Below, in pieces: positions 11,196 to 63,244 of a stretch of 64,000 bases of DNA. The notes under the pieces were generated by a model. That model was not told where the DNA came from and made no database searches. It worked only from the letters and a program-made list of their open reading frames with translations. The translations under genes and the position numbers were made by a program. The DNA is taken from positions 744,001 to 808,000 of the forward strand of contig NZ_JACZEP010000002.1 in assembly GCF_014863355.1 (NCBI RefSeq), written 5' to 3'. Origin of the DNA: Aminobacter carboxidus. GTDB lineage: Bacteria; Pseudomonadota; Alphaproteobacteria; Rhizobiales; Rhizobiaceae. The first letter of the stretch is position 1. Every line of letters starts with the position of its first letter.

Positions 11196-13106
11196 TCAGG
11201 CAATGCCGATGCCGCGGGCTTTCAGCGCCTCCGATATCTCGTCGAGGATGACGGGGTCGTCGATCGTCGCCGGCATCTTCCACTCCTCGCGGTCGGCGAT
11301 CTTCTGCATGGTGCCGCGCAGGATCTTGCCCGAGCGGGTCTTGGGCAGGCGCTTGATGGTGACGACCATCTTGAAGGCGGCGACCGGGCCGATGCGGTCG
11401 CGGACGAGGCTGACGACCTCCTTTTCGATCGTGCCGGTGTCACGGGCGACGCCTGAATTCAGCACGATGAAGCCGCAAGGGATCTGGCCCTTCATCGCAT
11501 CGGCGATGCCGATGACGGCGCATTCGGCGACGTCGGGGTGTTCGGCGACGACCTCCTCCATGCCGCCCGTCGACAGGCGGTGGCCGGCGACGTTGATGAT
11601 GTCGTCGGTGCGCGCCATGATGAACAGATAGCCCTCGTCGTCGATGTAGCCGGCGTCAGCGGTCTTGTAGTAGCCGGGGAACTCGGCGAGGTAGGCGTTG
11701 AAGAAACGCTCGTCGGCGTGCCACAGCGTCGGCAGGCAGCCTGGCGGCAAGGGCAGCTTGATGACGACATTGCCGAGCGTTGAGCGCCCAACCTCATGGC
11801 CGGCATCGTCGAGTACGCGTACATCGTAGCCGGGCATCGGCACGCAGGGCGAACCGTATTTGACCGGCAACAGCCCGAGCCCGACAGGGTTCTGGCTGAT
11901 CGGGTGGCCGGTCTCGGTCTGCCACCAATGGTCGATAACAGGGACCTTCAGCTTGTTTTCGGCCCATTTGATGGTTTCGGGGTCGGCGCGCTCGCCGGCG
12001 AGGAACAAGGTGCGGAATTTCGACAAATCGTATTGCGGGACAAAAAGGCCTTGCGGGTCCTCCTTCTTGATGGCGCGGAAGGCGGTGGGGGCGGTGAACA
12101 GGGCGACGACCCCGTGTTCCGAAATGACACGCCAGAATGTGCCAGCATCGGGCGTGCCGACCGGCTTGCCCTCAAACAGGATGGTGGTGGCGCCGTGCAG
12201 CAGCGGGGCATAGACGATGTAGGAGTGGCCGACGACCCAGCCGACATCTGATGCCGCCCAGAACACCTCGCCCGGCTTGACGCCGAATTCGTTCTCCATC
12301 GACCATTTGAGCGCGACCATGTGGCCGCCATTGTCGCGCACCACGCCCTTGGGCTGGCCCGTCGTACCAGAGGTGTAGAGCACGTAGAGCGGATCGGTGG
12401 CGGCAACAGGCACGCAGTCGACAGTGCGCCCTGCCGCCTTGGCAGCACCGACTGTCTCGGCATAATCGAGGTCGCGGCCGGGGACGAGATCGCAACTTAG
12501 CTGCGGCCGCTGCAGGATCACGCAGGCCTGCGGCTTGTGGGTCGCGAGTTCGATGGCGCCGTCGAGCAGCGGCTTGTAGGCGACGACGCGGCCAGGCTCG
12601 ATGCCGCAGGAGGCCGAGATGATCAGCCTGGGCGTGGCGTCGTCGATGCGAGTGGCGAGCTCCTTGGCGGCAAAGCCGCCAAACACCACCGAATGGATGG
12701 CGCCGAGGCGGGCGCAGGCAAGCATGGCAAAAGCTGCTTCAGCCACCATCGGCATGTAGATGATGACGCGGTCGCCTTTGCCGACGCCCTGGTCCTGGAG
12801 CACGCCGGCGAGCGCGTTCACTTCGGCCATCAGCCCGGCATAGGTGAATTTCTGCTGCGTGCCGGTGATCGGGCTGTCGTGGATCAGGGCTATCTGTTCG
12901 GCGCGGCCGGATGCGACATGGCGGTCGAGCGCATTGTAGCAGGTGTTGCACTGAGCTCCCGTGAACCACTGGCCATAGACGCCGCCCTCGGCGTCGAAGA
13001 CCTTGTCCCACGGCTTGAACCAGTCGATCGCCCTTGCCGCCTCGGCCCAGAACCCCTCGGGATCGCTGGCCCAACCGTCATAGACCTCGTGATAGCGAGA
13101 TGGCAT
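11196..13106 (-). CDS. prpE: Propionyl-CoA synthetase
   Basis: 636-residue acyl-CoA synthetase of the ANL superfamily, closest in pattern to PrpE: N-terminal YHEVYDGWASDPEGFWAEAA, the P-loop YTSGTTGQPKGVVRDNGGH, the DVGWVVGHSYIVYAPLL core and the C-terminal KTRSGKILRGTM bearing the catalytic, acetylation-prone Lys. It activates propionate (or acetate/acrylate) with ATP and CoA. The ribosome site is GGAAGGAAAC. No other methylcitrate or methylmalonyl genes are adjacent. Confidence 0.93.
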   Translation of the reverse strand: MPSRYHEVYDGWASDPEGFWAEAARAIDWFKPWDKVFDAEGGVYGQWFTGAQCNTCYNALDRHVASGRAEQIALIHDSPITGTQQKFTYAGLMAEVNALAGVLQDQGVGKGDRVIIYMPMVAEAAFAMLACARLGAIHSVVFGGFAAKELATRIDDATPRLIISASCGIEPGRVVAYKPLLDGAIELATHKPQACVILQRPQLSCDLVPGRDLDYAETVGAAKAAGRTVDCVPVAATDPLYVLYTSGTTGQPKGVVRDNGGHMVALKWSMENEFGVKPGEVFWAASDVGWVVGHSYIVYAPLLHGATTILFEGKPVGTPDAGTFWRVISEHGVVALFTAPTAFRAIKKEDPQGLFVPQYDLSKFRTLFLAGERADPETIKWAENKLKVPVIDHWWQTETGHPISQNPVGLGLLPVKYGSPCVPMPGYDVRVLDDAGHEVGRSTLGNVVIKLPLPPGCLPTLWHADERFFNAYLAEFPGYYKTADAGYIDDEGYLFIMARTDDIINVAGHRLSTGGMEEVVAEHPDVAECAVIGIADAMKGQIPCGFIVLNSGVARDTGTIEKEVVSLVRDRIGPVAAFKMVVTIKRLPKTRSGKILRGTMQKIADREEWKMPATIDDPVILDEISEALKARGIGIA

Positions 13107-56221: not shown

Positions 56222-57853
56222 GTGGAGCGTGACACGAGCCGGCCAGAATTGAAAAAATACTTTCCCACTTTGATATTTATTGCCGTCGCGCTGGTCAGCC
56301 TGACGATGGCGGCGCTCGTTTATTTTGCGACGGTCGAGGCGGCGAGGATCAAGTTCCAGTCGGTGGCCGACGATGCGCTTAACCGCATCGAGGGCAGGAT
56401 GGAGTTCGACCTTGCCTTGCTGCATGCGACGCAGGCGATGTTTGCGGCGCAGAAGGGCAATCTTTCGCGCGACCAGTTTCGCAGCTACTTCGCTTCGCTC
56501 GATGCCGAGCGGAGTTTCCCGAGCCTGCGCGGCATCGGTTTTGTCAGGCTCATCGACAGCGGACAAAGCGATGCGATCACAGCCGAGCTGAAACAAGGCT
56601 ACGGCATCGACCGACCGCTTTTCCCTGATACAAACCTGTCGTGGCGGACGCCGATCGTGCTGTTCGAGCCGATGAGCAAGGCCAGCCTTGACGCCATGGG
56701 CTTCGACATGGCGACCGACCCGCTGCGCCGCAGCGCGATCGAAGCGGCGTTGGCGGCAAAGGGTGAACCCAGGGCTACCAGTCGGGTGCTGCTTGGCCAG
56801 GGCGACAACGGCCCGCGCCAGCCAGGGATATTGGTGTTTTCGCGCGTCGACCGGCCGGATGGCGAGGGGACGGCGCCTGCCGGTTTCCTCTATGTCGCCT
56901 TCCGCACCTCCGAGCTGTTTCAGGCCGCACTTGGCAAGGCGCCGCTGCTGCCGGTCGCTGTCGAAGTGTTCGACGGCACGATGGGCGACGACACCTTGCT
57001 GTTCCGCTCGGAGGCGCCGCCAGATCCCGGCTATGGCGACGACTTTTCGGTGACGCGCGAGGCCGATGTCGCCGGCCGCAAGTGGACGATCAATTTCAGG
57101 CCGAGTACCGCCTTCATGCCGCCATCGCCGCGCACGGCACCTTTGATGCTCGGGCTGTTCGGCCTGGTGCTGGCCGGCTCGATCGCGCTGGTGGCCCGCT
57201 ACCAGCAGCGCGCCTACGAGGCTGCGGCCCTGCTTCACGAAACGACGGAGAAGAGCCTCCTGGAGAAGGACCTGATGCTTCAGGAAATGAAGCATCGCAT
57301 CAAGAACTCGATCGCTCGTGTCCTGGCGATGGCGCGCCAGACGGCGGCACACTCCGAAAACATCGACGAGTTCTCGGCGTCGTTCTCGGCCCGGCTTCAG
57401 GCGATGGCTGCTTCCCAGGACATGCTGACGCGTTCACGCTGGCAAAAGGCCGATCTTGGCGAGTTGTTGCGCATCGAGCTCGGCCAGGTGTTCGGCAAGG
57501 AATTGCCGGTGGACATGATGTCCGGTCCCAAGGTCGAACTGGACGAGACGACGACACAGGCGCTCGGGCTGACTTTCCATGAACTGGCGACCAACGCATT
57601 GAAATATGGCGATGGTGACAACTCGGTCGGTGGACTGAAGGTCGACTGGCGCCTGAACGGCCAGGGCAAGGGGCGGCGTCTGTTGTTCAACTGGGTCGAA
57701 CGCAACGCCAACGGTGTGTCGGCACCTGAAAAGACCGGCTTCGGCACCAAGCTGATCGACATGAACATCACCCGCGAACTCGATGGCCAGATCGTGCGGC
57801 GTTACACCGAAGACGGGTTGAGGGTGGAGATCGATATACCGTATCGCCGCTGA
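56222..57853 (+). CDS. CHASE-domain HWE-type sensor histidine kinase
   Basis: 543 residues from GTG at 56222. Membrane helix about 13-33, a periplasmic CHASE domain (about 60-290, FRSYFASLDAERSFPSLRGI), second helix about 303-323, then an HWE/HisKA_2 kinase with MKHRIKNSIARVLAMARQTA (His about 352) and FHELATNALKYGDGD as N box. HWE kinases often control PhyR in alphaproteobacteria; phyR lies 2.4 kb away. Ligand unknown. No ribosome site before the GTG. Confidence 0.9.
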   Translation: MERDTSRPELKKYFPTLIFIAVALVSLTMAALVYFATVEAARIKFQSVADDALNRIEGRMEFDLALLHATQAMFAAQKGNLSRDQFRSYFASLDAERSFPSLRGIGFVRLIDSGQSDAITAELKQGYGIDRPLFPDTNLSWRTPIVLFEPMSKASLDAMGFDMATDPLRRSAIEAALAAKGEPRATSRVLLGQGDNGPRQPGILVFSRVDRPDGEGTAPAGFLYVAFRTSELFQAALGKAPLLPVAVEVFDGTMGDDTLLFRSEAPPDPGYGDDFSVTREADVAGRKWTINFRPSTAFMPPSPRTAPLMLGLFGLVLAGSIALVARYQQRAYEAAALLHETTEKSLLEKDLMLQEMKHRIKNSIARVLAMARQTAAHSENIDEFSASFSARLQAMAASQDMLTRSRWQKADLGELLRIELGQVFGKELPVDMMSGPKVELDETTTQALGLTFHELATNALKYGDGDNSVGGLKVDWRLNGQGKGRRLLFNWVERNANGVSAPEKTGFGTKLIDMNITRELDGQIVRRYTEDGLRVEIDIPYRR

Positions 57854-57892
57854 CGTGCCTCGACGTCTGCCAAGAAGCCGGTTCGACAAGAA

Positions 57893-57926
57893 AAACCCGG
57901 CGACGGCCAGAGCCATCGCCGGGTTT
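57893..57926. terminator. Bidirectional terminator
   Basis: Perfect 11-bp stem AAACCCGGCGA (57893-57903) / TCGCCGGGTTT (57916-57926), between the convergent kinase and lipoprotein genes, with A and T runs on its sides. Confidence 0.85.
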
Positions 57927-57942
57927 GGTCTGCAAAGCCGTG

Positions 57943-58188
57943 TTAGCGGCAGCGCGCGGTGTAGATCTGGCCGCGGCTGTTGCGATATTCGCAGTAGCCA
58001 TTGCGCAGATTGCGCACCAGCAGGCCCGACGCAGCACCTACGGCACCGCCGATCAGAGCCCCGCGGCCGCCGCCGATCAGCGCGCCCGCCACAGCACCAA
58101 CGCCCGTGCCGGTGGCTACGTCGCGCTCGGTCGTCGTGCAGCCTGAGATTGCAACGACGGCTGCAACGACAAGGATAAGCTTCTTCAT
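57943..58188 (-). CDS. Glycine-zipper lipoprotein
   Basis: 81 residues. Signal with a lipobox (MKKLILVVAAVVAISGC), then a Gly-zipper stretch (GTGVGAVAGALIGGGRGALI with further GxxxG repeats) and a C-terminal RNGYCEYRNSRGQIYTARC. Like YMGG/osmotically inducible small lipoproteins. Membrane-attached, function unknown. Confidence 0.85.
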   Translation of the reverse strand: MKKLILVVAAVVAISGCTTTERDVATGTGVGAVAGALIGGGRGALIGGAVGAASGLLVRNLRNGYCEYRNSRGQIYTARCR

Positions 58189-58375
58189 GTGGTCAGTCCT
58201 CTCACTTTAACATCGCCCTTGGGAATACTTAGCGTATCGGTCTGAAAATCGGAATCGTTTTTCCGCTCGCCGCATCAATTCAACGGCTTAGCGTATCCGC
58301 ATGATGTCGGCTCCCTGGTCTGAGGGGGGTGGGCGGATACGCTGCTGCATTCATGGGCCGCATTCATGGACCGCA

Positions 58376-58693
58376 TCAATGGAGATAAGCCGGCTTGCCG
58401 GTGGCGGTATCCGCCACGACGACGCTGGATACGGTTAGAGACGCCTCGAGCGTGCCATTGGGCAGGACGTTCCAGGTCAGCTGGTCGTAATCGTCCTCAA
58501 GTGCCGGATCGACCTCCAGGCACCTGGCAAAAGTGCGGTTGCTGCTCGACCTGAACGCGCCGAGAACCTTCGGCAGTTCAGCCTGGCACGCGTCATACGC
58601 CTCATACAGGGGCGCAGGCGCCGGAATCTCGCGGCAACCCGACAAGTCCTGGGAGCAGGAAACGACCAACAGAAATGCTGCGATGTGTTCCAT
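58376..58693 (-). CDS. Secreted or lipid-anchored hypothetical protein
   Basis: 105 residues. Hydrophobic start MEHIAAFLLVVSCSQDLSGC with lipobox-like LSGC, a Cys-containing middle (AYDACQAELPKVLGAF, FARCLEVD) and a beta-like end. AGGTGG lies before the ATG. No family. A GGAAC-N17-CGTT site upstream (58715-58740) predicts EcfG control, consistent with its place in the stress region. Confidence 0.65.
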   Translation of the reverse strand: MEHIAAFLLVVSCSQDLSGCREIPAPAPLYEAYDACQAELPKVLGAFRSSSNRTFARCLEVDPALEDDYDQLTWNVLPNGTLEASLTVSSVVVADTATGKPAYLH

Positions 58694-58714
58694 GGCAAAC
58701 CACCTCGGCCAAGA

Positions 58715-58740
58715 AACGGCGGGTGGAGGCTAAAAGTTCC
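58715..58740 (-). promoter_or_regulatory. Predicted EcfG promoter
   Basis: Minus strand: GGAAC (58736-58740), 17 bases, CGTT (58715-58718), 21 bp before the start of the 105-residue gene. Confidence 0.65.
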
Positions 58741-58792
58741 ATGCAGCGGCCGAGCTGAACCGTTTGAATTTCAAGGCAGGCGGTCGCGGCAG

Positions 58793-59800
58793 CTAGTCCT
58801 GGTCCAACTCGAAGTTCGCCTGGGGCATGACGAGACGGTATTGCAGACTGTCGACGCCGATTTCGAGCTCGGCATTGCCGTTCAGAGCGGCCGGTACGAC
58901 GCGCTCGAGCGCCACCGAGCCGAAGCGTTTCTTGCGCGTCGAGGCATCCGCGATCGGGCCGATCGCTTCCGACCAGTGCAGGCTCATCTGCTCTTCGCCG
59001 TCGGGACCGGAGATCTTGCTCGCCGTTACCTCGACGTGACCGTCGGCACGGGAAAGCGCGCCATAACTCACCGAATTGACCGCCAGCTCGTGCACGGCAA
59101 GGCCGATATGCAGGGCGGCATTGGGGGTGAGATATGGATCGTCGCCCAGAATGTGCACCGCGTGCTCGGTGTCGTTGCTGTAGCGCTTGACCTGGCCGAC
59201 GACCAGTTCGCGGAAGCCGGCGCCGCGCCAGTTGGACGAGGTGACAAGGTCCTGCGACGAGGCCAGCGACTGGAGGCGGCCGCGAAAGCGATCGAGGAAG
59301 ACGTCGATGGAGCCTGAGTAGTGGCCGGTCTGGCTGGCGATGCTCTGGATGATCGCCAAAAGGTTCTTGGAGCGGTGGCTGACTTCGCGCAACAGCGCCT
59401 TCAGGGTCTGCTCACGCCGCTTCTGTTCGGTGGTTTCGATGACGGTGACGACAACACCCTGGATCTGGCCGCTTGGCGACCGGTCGGCGTCGATGCAGAC
59501 GTCGAACCAGCGCATGCCGGCAGCGTTGTCGGCGATGCTGACCTCAAGCGCATCCGAATTGCCGGTCGCAAGGGTGTTTTTCTTGGCGGCGACGAGCCGG
59601 TCGGCCTGCTGTTCGGGCAGGAAGTCGCCTTCGCCGGTCTGCTCTTCGAGCGCGTCCGCCCAGGGCGGCTGCAGATTGTGCGACCAGACCGTGTGGAGCC
59701 TATGATCCTGGTAGAGCACGGCAATGCCCGCATTGCGGGAGGCATGGAGCAGGGCGGCGTCGACCCTTTTACTCTGTCCCGCTGTGGAGGGATTGGCCAT
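58793..59800 (-). CDS. PAS-HWE sensor histidine kinase, soluble
   Basis: 335 residues, no membrane part. A PAS-like N-terminus (NAGIAVLYQDHRLHTVWSHN through VVVTVIETTEQKRRE), then HisKA_2/HWE: REVSHRSKNLLAIIQSIASQ with the His at about 145, RLQSLASSQDLVTSSNWRGA and LAVHELAVNSVSYGALS. These kinases phosphorylate PhyR in relatives; the phyR gene is 400 bp upstream. The ATG at 59798-59800 is used; the frame reaches a TTG at 59860. Confidence 0.9.
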   Translation of the reverse strand: MANPSTAGQSKRVDAALLHASRNAGIAVLYQDHRLHTVWSHNLQPPWADALEEQTGEGDFLPEQQADRLVAAKKNTLATGNSDALEVSIADNAAGMRWFDVCIDADRSPSGQIQGVVVTVIETTEQKRREQTLKALLREVSHRSKNLLAIIQSIASQTGHYSGSIDVFLDRFRGRLQSLASSQDLVTSSNWRGAGFRELVVGQVKRYSNDTEHAVHILGDDPYLTPNAALHIGLAVHELAVNSVSYGALSRADGHVEVTASKISGPDGEEQMSLHWSEAIGPIADASTRKKRFGSVALERVVPAALNGNAELEIGVDSLQYRLVMPQANFELDQD

Positions 59801-59971
59801 GCGACGAGCGCCTTTGCTCTGCTCATTGCGGTTCGGCCGAATGATCTCGGCAAGAACCAAATGGGACCGCCGGGCAACGCTTCAAGAATGAGGCGCTACC
59901 CGGCGGCGCTGGATTCCGACTGAGGGGGCCGGCTTCCAGTCTCGGGTTGGTTCTTCATATTGCCGGCGTCA

Positions 59972-60136
59972 TCAAGCGCGCCTGAACAGGCCCGCGATCA
60001 GCGAAATGACCAGGAACGCCAGGAAGATGAAGAACAAGATTTGCGCGATACCGGCTGATGTTCCGGCGATGCCGCCGAAGCCGAGGGCGCCGGCAATAAT
60101 CGCAACGACAAGGAATACGAGCGCCCAATAAAGCAT
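59972..60136 (-). CDS. DUF1328 small membrane protein
   Basis: 54 residues, two membrane helices: [20 protein letters not shown] and, after [12 protein letters not shown], the [17 protein letters not shown] helix, ending RRA. It is the typical DUF1328 (YtjA-like) pattern. GAAGGAGATAGATC precedes the ATG. An exact EcfG promoter at 60166-60190 predicts stress induction. Confidence 0.9.
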
Positions 60137-60165
60137 GATCTATCTCCTTCAAATGACGCATGAAA

Positions 60166-60190
60166 AACGTGCCGCCCCAAGGTTGGTTCC
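60166..60190 (-). promoter_or_regulatory. Predicted EcfG promoter of DUF1328 gene
   Basis: Minus strand: GGAAC (60186-60190), 16 bases, CGTT (60166-60169), 29 bp before the ATG. Confidence 0.8.
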
Positions 60191-60212
60191 CTGAGGCGGT
60201 GCATAAAAAGCC

Positions 60213-61007
60213 CTATGCCGCAGCCTTTGCCTGTCTGTCAAAGAACAAAGCCTGACTGATCAGCGCCTTGACCATATCGGGGTTGAACGGCTTGGTGACG
60301 AGGAAGGCCGGCTCCGGCCGCTCGCCGGTCAAGAGGCGCTCGGGGAAGGCGGTGATGAAGATCACCGGCAGCGGTGCGGAAGACAGCATCTCGTTGACGG
60401 CATCGATGCCGGAGCTGCCGTCGGCGAGCTGGATGTCGGCCAGGATCATCTTGGGACGCGTCCGCTTGAACAGCGATATCGCCTCCGCGCGGGTGCGGGC
60501 GGTGCCGACGACGCGATGGCCCAGGCTCTCCACCATCTCTTCGATGTCCATGGCGATCAGCGGTTCGTCCTCGATGATCAGGATGTCGGTCGCCACCTGA
60601 CGCGAGATTTCGCCGCTCGCTTCCTGCAGCAGCCTTGTGAACTCGTCCGGATCGGTGTCGAGGACCTCGGCGGCCTCGGCTTCGTTGAAGCCTTCGACGG
60701 CAACCAGCAGGAATGCCTGGCGCGGACGCGGCGACAGCGCAGAAAGATTGGCTGCGGCGCGCTTTTCCCAGCCAAGCGTTGGCGAGTCCTGCGGCACGCG
60801 AATGGAAACGGATGTGAAAAGACGGGCAAATATCTTGTAGAGCGCAATGCGGTCGTTGGAAGCGGACGGGAACACATCGATGTCGTCGATCAGTGCTTCA
60901 AGCATCGCAGCCACCAGCGCATCGCCGCTCTCCTGGGAGCCCGCCACCGCGCGTGAGAAACGGCGGAGATAGGGCAGGTGCGGGGCGATTCTCGTGGATA
61001 GTGTCAT
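60213..61007 (-). CDS. phyR: General stress response regulator PhyR
   Basis: 264 residues. The N-terminal sigma-like domain (about 1-135, HLPYLRRFSRAVAGSQESGD, LSPRPRQAFLLVAVEGFNEA) mimics an ECF sigma factor and binds NepR. The C-terminal receiver has ILIIEDEPLIAMDIEEMVE, phospho-Asp191 in ILADIQLADGSSG, and LVTKPFN. On phosphorylation it captures NepR and frees EcfG. GGGAGACG precedes the ATG. Its own EcfG promoter is at 61060-61084. Confidence 0.97.
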   Translation of the reverse strand: MTLSTRIAPHLPYLRRFSRAVAGSQESGDALVAAMLEALIDDIDVFPSASNDRIALYKIFARLFTSVSIRVPQDSPTLGWEKRAAANLSALSPRPRQAFLLVAVEGFNEAEAAEVLDTDPDEFTRLLQEASGEISRQVATDILIIEDEPLIAMDIEEMVESLGHRVVGTARTRAEAISLFKRTRPKMILADIQLADGSSGIDAVNEMLSSAPLPVIFITAFPERLLTGERPEPAFLVTKPFNPDMVKALISQALFFDRQAKAAA

Positions 61008-61059
61008 GATTGACGTCTCCCTCATTCGACGTTGCTGAAACTGTTGTGAAGCGACACAC

Positions 61060-61084
61060 AACGCGTGGTCTGTGCAAAAGTTCC
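61060..61084 (-). promoter_or_regulatory. Predicted EcfG promoter of phyR
   Basis: Minus strand: GGAAC (61080-61084), 16 bases, CGTT (61060-61063). Its -35 box is eight bases from that of the divergent nepR promoter. Confidence 0.85.
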
Positions 61085-61092
61085 TCTTTTGT

Positions 61093-61117
61093 GGAACCTA
61101 TCCGCATTTGGGGAGTT
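61093..61117 (+). promoter_or_regulatory. Predicted EcfG promoter of nepR-ecfG
   Basis: GGAAC (61093-61097), 17 bases, GTT (61115-61117), preceded by A instead of C. It gives autoregulation of the sigma factor and its anti-sigma factor. Confidence 0.7.
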
Positions 61118-61203
61118 GGGTGCAAAATTTGAAAAACCGACAAGGTAGTTGCGCGCCATGTGGAGCGGGACGTCCGCGGGGCAAAAAGGGCGAAGACAAG
61201 CAT

Positions 61204-61401
61204 ATGACCAAGCAGACCAGTGGCGCAGCCAGCGCCGGGCCGAACCGTCGACGCGATGGTGAGCCTCTTGGGGCAAACTCCGAAATAGGCCGCAAGCTCA
61301 AGCAATATTACGATGAACTGGTGTCCGACGAGGTGCCGGATCGATTTGCCCAGCTGCTCAGCCAGCTGGAACAGGCCGAACCTGAGCAGCAGAAGGACTG
61401 A
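61204..61401 (+). CDS. nepR: Anti-sigma factor NepR
   Basis: 65 residues. Polar N-terminus, then the NepR core: NSEIGRKLKQYYDELVSDEV, PDRFAQLLSQLEQAE. It holds EcfG inactive until phosphorylated PhyR takes it away. The ATG at 61204 is used; the longer frame to 61072 is rejected because the residues are non-family. ecfG starts 6 bp after its stop. Confidence 0.95.
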   Translation: MTKQTSGAASAGPNRRRDGEPLGANSEIGRKLKQYYDELVSDEVPDRFAQLLSQLEQAEPEQQKD

Positions 61402-61407
61402 CCGGGC

Positions 61408-61956
61408 ATGGCAGCTTCCCTCGGTTTCAAGGGCGACTTGCTCGCCACCATCCCTGGCCTGCGCGCTTTCGCCATGTCGCTGTCGCAGAACGCCGACAGG
61501 GCCGACGATCTGGTCCAGGAAACGCTTGTCAAAGCGTGGGACAAGCAGTCGAGCTTTCAGCCTGGCACCAACCTCAAGGCCTGGCTGTTCACCATCCTGC
61601 GCAACGAGTTTTATTCGCAGATGCGCAAGCGCGGACGCGAAGTGCAGGACAGCGAGGGCCTTTTGACAGCCCGACTGGCCGTGCATCCGAGCCAGCATGG
61701 GCGACTCGATCTCGACGACTTCCGCAAGGCGCTTGAGCAGTTGCCGGAGGACCAGCGCGAGGCGATCATCCTGATCGGCGCGTCGGGCTTTTCTTATGAA
61801 GAGGCTGCGGAAATCTGCGGCTGTGCGGTCGGCACCATCAAGAGCCGCGTCAGCCGCGCCCGCAACAAGCTGCAGGAGATACTCGACATCTCGGGCGAGG
61901 CCGACTACGGCCCCGACGCGATCGCGGCCCAGGTGATGGGGTCAACTGTCGGCTGA
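61408..61956 (+). CDS. ecfG: General stress ECF sigma factor EcfG
   Basis: 182 residues of the EcfG (ECF15) group. Region 2: ADRADDLVQETLVKAWDKQS and LKAWLFTILRNEFYSQMRKR; region 4: LPEDQREAIILIGASGFSYE, GCAVGTIKSRVSRARNKLQ. Directs transcription from GGAAC...GTT promoters. Its last 15 bp overlap the convergent regulator gene's 3' end. Confidence 0.96.
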   Translation: MAASLGFKGDLLATIPGLRAFAMSLSQNADRADDLVQETLVKAWDKQSSFQPGTNLKAWLFTILRNEFYSQMRKRGREVQDSEGLLTARLAVHPSQHGRLDLDDFRKALEQLPEDQREAIILIGASGFSYEEAAEICGCAVGTIKSRVSRARNKLQEILDISGEADYGPDAIAAQVMGSTVG

Positions 61957-62337
61957 ACGTGCCGCCTTGCGGATGCTTTCGGCGACGGCCTCGATGAGGT
62001 CGGCGCCGGCATAGGGCTTGGAGACCAGGGCAACGCCGGGGAAGTCGGCGAAGACCTCGTCAAGCTTGTCATAGCCCGAAGCGAAAACGAAAGGGACGCC
62101 AGCTACCTTGAGCGAGCGTGCGAAGTCGAAGGTCGGCTCGCCGCCGAGCATCACGTCGATGATGGCGGCATCATAGGGCTTGGCGAGTTCGCGCGCTTCG
62201 CGAAGATTGCCGGCGATGGCAACCTCTCCGGCACCGTGGTCCCGGCAAAGCTGCTCGACATCGAGCGCAATCAGCGCCTCGTCTTCGAGCACAAGTATAC
62301 GCAGTCCTGATAGCGGGCTCGACACGTCGCGGGGCAC
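61942..62337 (-). CDS. Receiver-only response regulator (FAT GUY-like)
   Basis: 131 residues, only a receiver: LRILVLEDEALIALDVEQLC, phospho-Asp in AAIIDVMLGGE, and PFVFASGYDK with KPYAGADL. The F-A-S-G-Y stretch resembles the FAT GUY motif of single-domain regulators that act in general-stress phosphorelays. The GTG at 62335-62337 is the only start at the N-terminus, with a poorly placed GGA. It is convergent with ecfG and overlaps it by 15 bp. Confidence 0.88.
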   Translation of the reverse strand: MPRDVSSPLSGLRILVLEDEALIALDVEQLCRDHGAGEVAIAGNLREARELAKPYDAAIIDVMLGGEPTFDFARSLKVAGVPFVFASGYDKLDEVFADFPGVALVSKPYAGADLIEAVAESIRKAARSADS

Positions 62338-62434
62338 TCCATGAAATCGGGCCGAACATGACGGCAGTCGCGCCCGCTGTCATTTAAAAAAGACATGGGC
62401 TGGACGCGTCAACAAGAGATGGCTGGACGCGGCC

Positions 62435-62459
62435 GGAACCTTTGTCAAGTCGGGGCGTT
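62435..62459 (+). promoter_or_regulatory. Predicted EcfG promoter of the Crp/Fnr gene
   Basis: GGAAC (62435-62439), 16 bases, CGTT (62456-62459), 23 bp before the ATG at 62483. Confidence 0.8.
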
Positions 62460-62482: not shown

Positions 62483-63244
62483 ATGGCTGTACGGGGTGGC
62501 TCAACCGAGGTGGGGCGGAAAGTTTCGTGTGAAAGTTGCCCTTTGCGGCAGATGCCGACATTCAGGGCGTTCGACAAGGAGGAGCTGGCCTTTGTCAGCA
62601 ACTTCAAGCGCGGCGAACTCGCCGCCGACAAGGGCGCGACGCTGCTTTCGGAAGGCAGCAACAGTGCCCATCTGTTCACCATCCTGGCGGGGTGGGGCTT
62701 TCGCTACAAGCTGTTGGAGGACGGCCGTCGCCAGATTCTGAACTATGTGCTGCCCGGCGACATGATCGGGCTGCAAGGCGGCCTGATGGGCGAGATGCAG
62801 CACTCGGTGGAAGCGCTTTCGCCGATGCTGTTGTGCATGTTCGAGCGCGACCGGCTGATGGAGCTTTATCGCGGCTATCCGGGCCTTGCCTATGACATCA
62901 CCTGGATCGCTTCGCGCGAGGAACGCATGCTCGACGAAAACCTGCTGAGTGTCGGCCGGCGCTCGGCGCTGGAGCGTGCAGCCTATCTCCTGGCCTTCAT
63001 TGCCAGTCGGGCGCGCAAGGTCGGCATGGGCGGCAAAGGCGATGTCGATATCCCGATCACCCAGCAGCATGTTGCCGATACGCTCGGGCTTTCGGTGGTT
63101 CACACCAACAAGACGATCCGCAAGCTGATCGACCGCAAACTGGTTCAGTGGCGCGATGGCGGCTGCAAGGTGCTCGACATCGAAGGATTGATGGCGCTGG
63201 CGAACTGGAGCGGCCTCGACGAAACTCTACGCCCCCTGCTGTGA
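62483..63244 (+). CDS. Crp/Fnr family transcriptional regulator
   Basis: 253 residues. A short Cys motif at the start (SCESCPLRQM), a cyclic-nucleotide-binding-like beta barrel (KGATLLSEGSNSAHLFTILA, LPGDMIGLQGGL) and a C-terminal helix-turn-helix (ITQQHVADTLGLSVVHTNKT, then IRKLIDRKLV). The N-terminal Cys are too few for an FNR iron-sulfur cluster. CAGGAGG lies before the ATG. The EcfG promoter upstream makes it a likely second-tier regulator of the stress response. Confidence 0.93.
   Translation: MAVRGGSTEVGRKVSCESCPLRQMPTFRAFDKEELAFVSNFKRGELAADKGATLLSEGSNSAHLFTILAGWGFRYKLLEDGRRQILNYVLPGDMIGLQGGLMGEMQHSVEALSPMLLCMFERDRLMELYRGYPGLAYDITWIASREERMLDENLLSVGRRSALERAAYLLAFIASRARKVGMGGKGDVDIPITQQHVADTLGLSVVHTNKTIRKLIDRKLVQWRDGGCKVLDIEGLMALANWSGLDETLRPLL

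Follow-up and report, generated by a model that had tools for sequence, protein, structure and literature searches.

The subject of this analysis is the general stress locus phyR-nepR-ecfG in a 64,000-nucleotide stretch of Aminobacter carboxidus DNA (contig NZ_JACZEP010000002.1, positions 744,001 to 808,000; hereafter the window), and in particular two genes at its flank: a FATGUY-type single-domain receiver, here called REC, and a divergent gene for a Crp/Fnr-type regulator. Sequence comparison marks the Crp/Fnr gene as REC's steadiest genetic partner and its most conserved link. We propose, tentatively and somewhat short of even confidence, that the two form a feedback brake, in which EcfG would raise the Crp-like protein, this protein would set the level of REC, and REC would govern phosphoryl flow to PhyR. 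The elements that define this arm are:

61942 to 62337, minus strand: REC, a FATGUY-type single-domain receiver of 131 amino acids with the motif PFVFASGY, its 3' end overlapping that of ecfG by 15 nt
62378 to 62395: an 18-bp near-palindrome, TGTCATTTAAAAAAGACA, between REC and the Crp/Fnr gene
62435 to 62459, plus strand: EcfG-type promoter of the Crp/Fnr gene (GGAAC-N17-GTT)
62483 to 63244, plus strand: the Crp/Fnr-type regulator, REC's neighbour (cNMP_binding 49.8 bits, HTH_Crp_2 44.9 bits)

Orthologues of the Crp/Fnr protein (E <=1e-60) are present in 69 of 151 genomes of the family. Fifty-five of their loci were examined, comprising all 21 that are unlinked to phyR and 34 of the 48 that are linked, the window's own locus excluded. 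A single receiver other than PhyR adjoins the Crp gene, divergently or in tandem, in 49 of the 55 (29/34 linked, 20/21 unlinked), or in 45 of 51 once four loci fetched by their palindrome (L227, L228, L229, L231) are set aside; random anchors have an adjacent receiver in 10 of 289 cases. The arrangement is thus a Crp/Fnr factor genetically paired with a single receiver, in the manner of a FixK-FixT-like pair. Three cysteines are invariant in all 56 Crp proteins aligned and a fourth is present in 52, while the recognition helix reads V-H-T-N in all 55 rows having residues there. The invariant cysteines suggest a redox or iron-sulphur type, so that the Crp-like protein is a possible iron-sulphur or thiol sensor. 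Natural pseudo-receivers, in which Glu takes the place of the phospho-Asp or the acid pair is absent, occupy this conserved position beside the Crp/Fnr orthologues of L133, L140, L171, L173, L176, L228, L229, L231, L254, L256 and L258.

Two sets of phyR loci were compared throughout. The first, 80 named loci, was picked by receiver similarity, consists mostly of Mesorhizobium and Aminobacter, includes some short contigs and is uninformative on receiver frequency. The second comprises 80 PhyR loci, one per genus of the family, chosen independently of the receiver.

Read on the receiver's strand, the palindrome is TGTCTTTTTTAAATGACA (62378-62395). Of 109 receiver loci (L177, L189, L199 and L130 left out), 94 have its core, TGTC-N10-GACA, in the 350 bp ahead of the receiver, against a shuffled expectation of 0.4; the shuffles used for this motif and for promoters preserve base composition only, not dinucleotides. 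The exact 18 bases recur at 80 receiver loci; the site lies 53 to 61 bp before the receiver start in 72, and receiver identity falls as low as 32%. The site goes with the Crp gene: 89 of the 94 receiver loci that adjoin a Crp gene have it, against 5 of the 15 that do not (Fisher p 1.7e-7, uncorrected for relatedness). In the 57 named loci with both elements, its end lies 11 to 38 bp (median 15) ahead of the GGAAC of the Crp promoter. By position, the Crp-like protein would be the best candidate to act on this shared palindrome.

The palindrome is the only such site in the 6.29-Mb genome. A regulon-wide operator in this genome was considered and rejected, as a single site is found even at 3 mismatches and a reversed control also gives one match. 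Nor does the palindrome mark the Crp gene everywhere. Of 37 divergent pairs, 23 have it upstream of Crp; all 12 tandem pairs lack it there, as do all 6 loci without an adjacent receiver (L189, where the only match is PhyR, is counted among the six), and at L227 it stands between Crp and the tandem receiver. In G120, G057 and G075 (L227, L229, L231), the exact site or a one-base variant occurs away from phyR, next to a receiver and a Crp orthologue. A looser pattern yields 46 sites in 44 of 151 genomes, the reversed control pattern being present in 9 genomes. Twenty of the 46 are at phyR beside the receiver position by coordinates (the receiver is degenerate in G068 and G109) and 3 are beside an unlinked Crp gene; 8 of the remaining 23 were inspected and have no Crp gene or receiver. 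Separately, L235-L238 carry sites of the form TGTCAATT-N2-AATTGACA near genes resembling photosynthesis genes; these are probably of PpsR/CrtJ type and unrelated to the phyR locus.

The remainder of the locus comprises the stress switch, its promoters and three HWE kinases:

56222 to 57853, plus strand: CHASE-HWE sensor histidine kinase (CHASE 99.2 bits, HWE_HK 72.7 bits)
58793 to 59860, minus strand: soluble PAS-type HWE kinase with an altered G box (RFG), adjoining phyR (HWE_HK 79.2 bits)
59972 to 60136, minus strand: DUF1328 small protein, ahead of the PAS kinase and behind an EcfG-type promoter (Pfam DUF1328 60.7 bits)
60166 to 60190, minus strand: EcfG-type promoter motif of DUF1328 and of the PAS kinase behind it
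60213 to 61007, minus strand: phyR, anti-anti-sigma response regulator (NF006623 382 bits; PhyR_sigma2 and Response_reg)
61060 to 61084, minus strand: EcfG-type promoter motif of phyR
61093 to 61117, plus strand: EcfG-like promoter of nepR-ecfG (GGAAC-N16-AGTT in the window)
61204 to 61401, plus strand: nepR, anti-sigma factor (Pfam NepR 59 bits), the start codon being our choice
61408 to 61956, plus strand: ecfG, general stress sigma factor (NF009199 338 bits)
about 65380 to 66819 on the window's scale, 1.4 kb past its end: third HWE kinase, GAF/PAS-type, 479 aa (HWE_HK match at C12:809713-809961)

The identities of PhyR, NepR and EcfG are certain. An initial annotation, made from the letters of the window, had placed a membrane CHASE-HWE kinase and a soluble PAS-HWE kinase within 4 kb of phyR and a receiver-only protein with FASGY convergent with ecfG, and open reading frames, Pfam domains and the overlapping 3' ends bear this out. 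It did not contain the third kinase, which lies outside the window, the Crp/Fnr pairing or the palindrome. The gene order across the 80 named loci is CHASE kinase, glycine-zipper gene, PAS kinase, DUF1328, phyR, nepR, ecfG, receiver, Crp/Fnr and GAF kinase, with the PAS kinase present in 79, the CHASE kinase in 75, the Crp gene in 70 and the GAF kinase in 64. Of the 80 one-per-genus loci, 59 contain the PAS kinase, 29 the receiver and 15 the CHASE kinase, and 17 have GAF-type kinases upstream of phyR. PhyR is above cut-off in 125 of the 151 genomes. The best receiver matches (>=76.5 bits) number 44, of which 41 lie <=2 kb from PhyR and 3 away from it (G031, G130, G102); a further match of 63 bits in G149 brings the loci with REC at phyR to 42. 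REC is therefore at phyR in at least 42 of the 125 PhyR-bearing genomes, a lower bound since weaker matches were excluded; distances to PhyR come from comparing two coordinate lists by hand. Because the same order recurs in 80 loci of Aminobacter, Mesorhizobium and relatives (picked by receiver), and because 41 of 44 receiver matches adjoin PhyR in 151 genomes not so picked, the arrangement is far beyond chance. The 15-nt overlap of REC with ecfG was discarded as a functional feature: the ends of the two tblastn matches run into each other at 5 of the 80 named loci and at none of the 29 others, the median distance between them being 67 nt and 28 nt, respectively.

The EcfG motif published for Sphingomonas is GGAAC-N17-20-GTT (PMC6599016). 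We scanned 250 bp upstream of each gene for the stricter GGAAC-N15-17-CGTT (N16-18 before GTT). In the named loci it precedes phyR in 79/80, nepR in 73/80, DUF1328 in 79/79, the PAS kinase in 66/79 and the Crp gene in 57/72, and it is absent from the receiver (0/80), the CHASE kinase (0/74), the GAF kinase (0/63) and the glycine-zipper gene (0/77); the shuffled expectation is <=0.3 per gene and 0.2 for the Crp gene. The one-per-genus loci give 48/80 for phyR, 29/54 for nepR, 49/53 for DUF1328, 20/58 for the PAS kinase, 7/31 for Crp, 1/29 for the receiver, 0/16 for CHASE and 1/24 for GAF. In the window, the PAS kinase has no EcfG motif of its own and sits behind DUF1328. Since the counts across the named loci differ between genes in this way, the switch and the PAS kinase look EcfG-controlled and the receiver, CHASE and GAF kinases do not; the Crp-like gene looks EcfG-controlled in the Aminobacter and Mesorhizobium loci. 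REC itself is not supported as an EcfG target, the strict motif being found at 0/80 named loci (a relaxed form in one) and 1/29 others. As a possible precedent, the top EcfG targets of Sphingomonas melonis include a gene annotated as a Crp-like cAMP-binding protein (PMC6599016).

Further candidate members of the stress block came to light in the same scan. A 105-aa open reading frame at 58376-58693 on the minus strand matches no Pfam or NCBIfam model and has an EcfG-type motif at 58740-58715; it is kept in 77 of 80 related loci. Because it is conserved and stands behind such a promoter, it is probably a real stress gene. Two divergent EcfG-type motifs occur in L009 at about 12431-12490 (64430-64489 on the window's scale, and so outside it), between genes of the AI-2E transporter and DUF883 types, and on their account the EcfG-controlled block seems to reach beyond the window.

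The promoter and pairing data bear on whether REC and the Crp-like protein belong to the stress circuit. They could instead be a separate module, for example for redox or oxygen control, parked beside phyR and not touching PhyR signalling. Such a module would suit the invariant cysteines and the pairs that stand apart from phyR at 20 of 21 such Crp loci. Set against it are the pairs that stand at phyR (29 of the 49 examined), the EcfG-type promoter of the Crp gene in 57 of 72 related loci and the fact that other FATGUY receivers serve the stress response (PMC5964349). We consider this explanation improbable.

Response_reg is the only domain found in REC, at 28.8 bits slightly under the 30.2 cut-off, and NCBIfam response-regulator models match at 3e-13 and weaker, all under their cut-offs. 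The structure model has a receiver fold (pLDDT 83.9); a Foldseek search with it puts ordinary receivers at the top and does not set FATGUY members apart. Among named receivers, the nearest are those of Aminobacter anthyllidis (92%) and A. ciceronei (89%). In an alignment of 102 orthologue rows, from which L177, L189 and L199 were excluded as PhyR's own receiver, 98 of the 99 rows having a residue there retain the phospho-Asp, and 99 of 99 the Lys. The motif PFxFA[ST]G[YG] is present in 89/102 rows in strict and 93/102 in relaxed form, and in 0/11 PhyR receivers. The published FATGUY motif is PFxFATG(G/Y) (PMC5964349). Ser takes the Thr position in 84 rows and Thr itself in 15, so a Thr-only definition would exclude the window's own REC. 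If Ser is allowed for Thr, REC is by sequence a FATGUY-type receiver with a complete phosphorylation site, which upholds, along with the tree below, the FAT GUY-like assignment of the initial annotation. The residue at K-3, which we take to be the position of the Y-T coupling residue that FATGUY receivers lack, is non-aromatic (Leu, Val or Ile) in 97/99 rows; it is Leu in PhyR receivers too and does not discriminate. Position D+2 does, being Met in 83/99 REC rows, the window's included, Asn in 21/23 other FATGUY-like receivers and Gln in 11/11 PhyR receivers. Tyr is at T+2 in 94 REC rows.

A receiver tree built from few columns, with bootstrap not settled, gathers the locus receivers into a single clade (35 rows, 99/95) that excludes SdrG and Sma0114. 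An SdrG query finds its best match in this genome elsewhere, at C1:516531-516848 (81.8 bits), and scores REC (33.7) no better than PhyR (37.2). REC is therefore ruled out as an orthologue of SdrG or MrrA, to which the Met at D+2 also speaks. The receiver that SdrG matches best (L006, contig C1:514476-517670, at 2029-2391) is itself of FATGUY type, with PFVFSTGY and Asn at D+2, and follows an HWE kinase with a fragmented reading frame. By a hand count, 24 of the 42 genomes with REC at phyR have no other single-domain receiver above 45 bits to SdrG; among these 24, the receiver of a hybrid kinase exceeds that score in 5 and nothing besides PhyR's receiver does in 19. Of 20 loci of other FATGUY-like receivers (L206-L225), 17 have an HWE kinase inside the same 4.5-kb stretch, compare Sma0113/Sma0114.

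HWE/HisKA2 kinases are the known kinases of PhyR and of FATGUY receivers (PMC5898713, PMC5964349). HWE_HK is matched at 8 places in the whole genome, and in all three local kinases above the Pfam cut-off of 22.8 (72.7, 79.2 and 96.7 bits). The CHASE kinase has two hydrophobic stretches by hydropathy, one on either side of its CHASE domain. The third kinase has HWE_HK at 96.7 bits, PAS_3 at 28.7 bits and a GAF domain under cut-off. The PAS kinase contains no hydrophobic 19-residue stretch by Kyte-Doolittle mean, and its PAS domain falls under the Pfam cut-off (PAS_4, 18.6 vs 23.1 bits). Its structure model, of moderate confidence (mean pLDDT 68.8), places a PAS-like strand order ahead of the kinase core and has as its best solved Foldseek match a LOV-PAS-HWE kinase of Brucella. 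Domain search reported no LOV domain in the three local kinases. This anatomy, with a periplasmic-type CHASE kinase, a soluble PAS-type kinase and a third of GAF/PAS type, supports the multi-input part of the phosphorelay that had been suggested from the sequence.

Catalytic motifs set the PAS kinase apart, the rows compared being dominated by Mesorhizobium. In 133 PAS kinases, HRxxN is complete in all, the N-box Asn is kept in 130 and the Glu of W-x-E in 132; the first Gly of GFG is replaced by Arg in 111 and the N-box Lys by Ser in 120. CHASE kinases keep HRxxN, the N-box Asn and GFG in 88/88 rows, and GAF kinases keep the first Gly of GFG in 68/70. The altered G box of the PAS kinase is also present in genera without REC. 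Because this box is systematically altered, the PAS kinase may be a phosphotransferase or phosphatase instead of the plain internal sensor kinase first supposed; it may autophosphorylate poorly, which has been reported of PhyT and of Caulobacter PhyK (PMC5898713, PMC5964349). A kinase-core tree, in which several rows are long-branched, separates the PAS kinases as a 66-row clade (100/99), all on the same strand as and downstream of phyR within the fetched stretches, and the CHASE kinases as a 22-row clade (99/98). The GAF kinases fall into one group (20 rows, 98/77) with HWE kinases that immediately follow ecfG in five other genera and are slightly further from it in a sixth. In two Mesorhizobium loci (L061 17083-17520, L072 17066-17431), a second ECF sigma-like stretch, 30-31% identical to EcfG, lies between the CHASE kinase and sugar ABC transporter genes.

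These features invite comparison with the positive relay of Sphingomonas and Caulobacter, in which the CHASE and GAF kinases would phosphorylate REC, and REC~P would pass its phosphoryl group through the PAS kinase, acting as an HPt-like PhyT, to PhyR. Were this so, all four layers of Pak-SdrG-PhyT-PhyR would be held in one locus of about 10 kb. REC is of FATGUY type, as are SdrG and MrrA, and a phyR-linked PAS kinase with Gly replaced by Arg in its G box (111/133) recalls PhyP/PhyT with their degenerate ATPase domain (PMC5898713). As 24 of the 42 genomes have no other SdrG-like single-domain receiver above 45 bits, REC could fill SdrG's place. However, SdrG's best match in this genome is another receiver (81.8 bits, with REC at 33.7 and PhyR at 37.2), and the Met that REC rows carry at D+2 (83/99) differs from the Asn of other FATGUY-like receivers (21/23). 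The PAS kinase retains its N-box Asn (130/133) and its W-x-E Glu (132/133), its altered G box extends to REC-less genera, and it has no hydrophobic stretch whereas PhyT is membrane-bound. We regard a positive relay as unlikely, though a serious contender.

We favour a brake, whether sink or antikinase, over the positive shuttle of SdrG and MrrA, because the circuit resembles a feedback arm and because partner receivers repeatedly lose their phosphorylation site. In the proposed mechanism the CHASE and GAF kinases, outside EcfG control, would be the inputs and would phosphorylate PhyR and REC. Active EcfG would raise PhyR, NepR, the PAS kinase and the Crp-like protein. The last of these, perhaps of redox or iron-sulphur type, would bind the palindrome and reset REC, which would take phosphoryl groups from the HWE kinases, or bind them, and so limit phosphorylation of PhyR. 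The PAS kinase that adjoins phyR has an altered ATP site and may move phosphate between REC and PhyR or remove it. The REC arm would thus be a second-tier feedback brake resembling FixT in the FixL-FixJ-FixK circuit, acting on the stress switch. Feedback inhibition of a kinase by its own single receiver has a precedent in FixT (PMC7078487); a second precedent is LovR, proposed as a phosphate sink for a stress-response HWE kinase (PMC4438053).

LovR also raises the simpler idea of a plain sink, with REC at constant level draining the HWE kinases and the Crp gene a mere neighbour. The complete receiver site of REC, the lack of a strict EcfG motif on it (0/80 related loci, relaxed in one) and the role proposed for LovR (PMC4438053) all agree with this. 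A mere neighbour would not account for a receiver adjoining the Crp gene in 20/21 loci away from phyR or for a palindrome conserved between the two genes at the phyR locus. A LOV domain, moreover, was reported for none of the three local kinases. We rate a plain sink as the least probable of the explanations considered.

Several observations weigh against the feedback brake. The action of the Crp-like protein on the palindrome, and its sign, are inferred. The palindrome is missing in 14 of 37 divergent Crp-receiver pairs and in 8 of 9 checked phyR-linked Crp loci without an identified REC, five of these nine holding a divergent, mostly degenerate receiver; it is therefore not a universal operator. 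The Crp gene and the palindrome touch, so one deletion could remove both and account for their joint loss. The exact site occurs once with no Crp gene or receiver nearby (G003). Among the 55 one-per-genus and unlinked Crp loci, just 12 have an EcfG motif ahead of the Crp gene, and EcfG control of this gene is therefore clear only in Aminobacter and Mesorhizobium. In 11 of 49 partner receivers the phospho-Asp is replaced by Glu or the acid pair is missing, which speaks against one shared phosphorylation mechanism; phosphorylation of the receiver is thus probably not needed in every Crp-receiver pair. Lastly, both SdrG and MrrA act as positive regulators and not as negative ones (PMC5898713, PMC5964349).

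Among known systems, REC resembles SdrG of Sphingomonas melonis and MrrA of Caulobacter as a single receiver domain with PFxFA(T/S)GY and a non-aromatic K-3, and as they go with PhyT and PhyK, so REC is tied by position to HWE kinases and PhyR. It differs from MrrA, compared by description only, in having Met where Asn is given for MrrA at D+2, the Tyr at T+2 being common to both (PMC5964349). The best solved-structure sequence match of REC is 2LPM (3.5e-16), that of Sma0114 of Sinorhizobium meliloti, which lies beside the HWE kinase Sma0113; unlike REC, Sma0114 has Asn at D+2 and falls in another clade. Sma0114 is presumably located elsewhere than phyR. FixT of Caulobacter and S. meliloti (with FixL, FixJ and FixK) is likewise a single receiver in a circuit that also holds a Crp/Fnr factor, whereas REC, again by description only, belongs to the EcfG stress circuit and has a complete phosphorylation site. 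The third kinase groups with the HWE kinases downstream of ecfG, the position of RsiC, which we take to be the HWE kinase encoded downstream of rpoE2 in S. meliloti; unlike RsiC it is set several genes further away, on the opposite strand and beyond the window's end. The PAS kinase is, like the PhyT/PhyP-type phosphotransferases, an HWE protein near phyR, but it is soluble, without a membrane anchor, and its CA domain is altered, not lost. LovR of Caulobacter and Brucella is a single receiver proposed as a sink for stress HWE kinases (PMC4438053); by description only, the present locus differs in that no LOV domain was found in its three kinases and no strict EcfG motif on REC. In size and layout the PAS kinase is, by description only, like the soluble PAS-HWE kinase PhyK of Brucella (PMC12354254).

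FATGUY receivers, HWE kinases at phyR, PhyT-like proteins and receiver-type antikinases are already known. A FATGUY receiver at phyR paired with a Crp/Fnr gene behind an EcfG-type promoter was not found in the open-licence literature searched, which is a weak negative. A broader scheme, which we hold to be doubtful, is that a widespread cassette of a Cys-bearing Crp/Fnr factor and its private receiver was built into the stress locus of one alphaproteobacterial lineage as a redox-gated feedback arm, in which EcfG would turn on the Crp-like factor, this factor would control the receiver through one dedicated palindrome and the receiver would throttle the HWE kinases; elsewhere the site-less receiver would be a pure antikinase like FixT.

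A stress response is harmful when over-active, and PhyT, LovR and MrrA represent differing answers across alphaproteobacterial species to the need to limit it. At the present locus, in soil bacteria, three input kinases are tied to a receiver and to the regulator that probably controls its transcription, so that the direction of feedback could be tested by a few deletions. If the proposal is true, the Crp-receiver pair would add a regulatory layer, perhaps a redox one, to the stress circuit of Aminobacter and of nitrogen-fixing Mesorhizobium.

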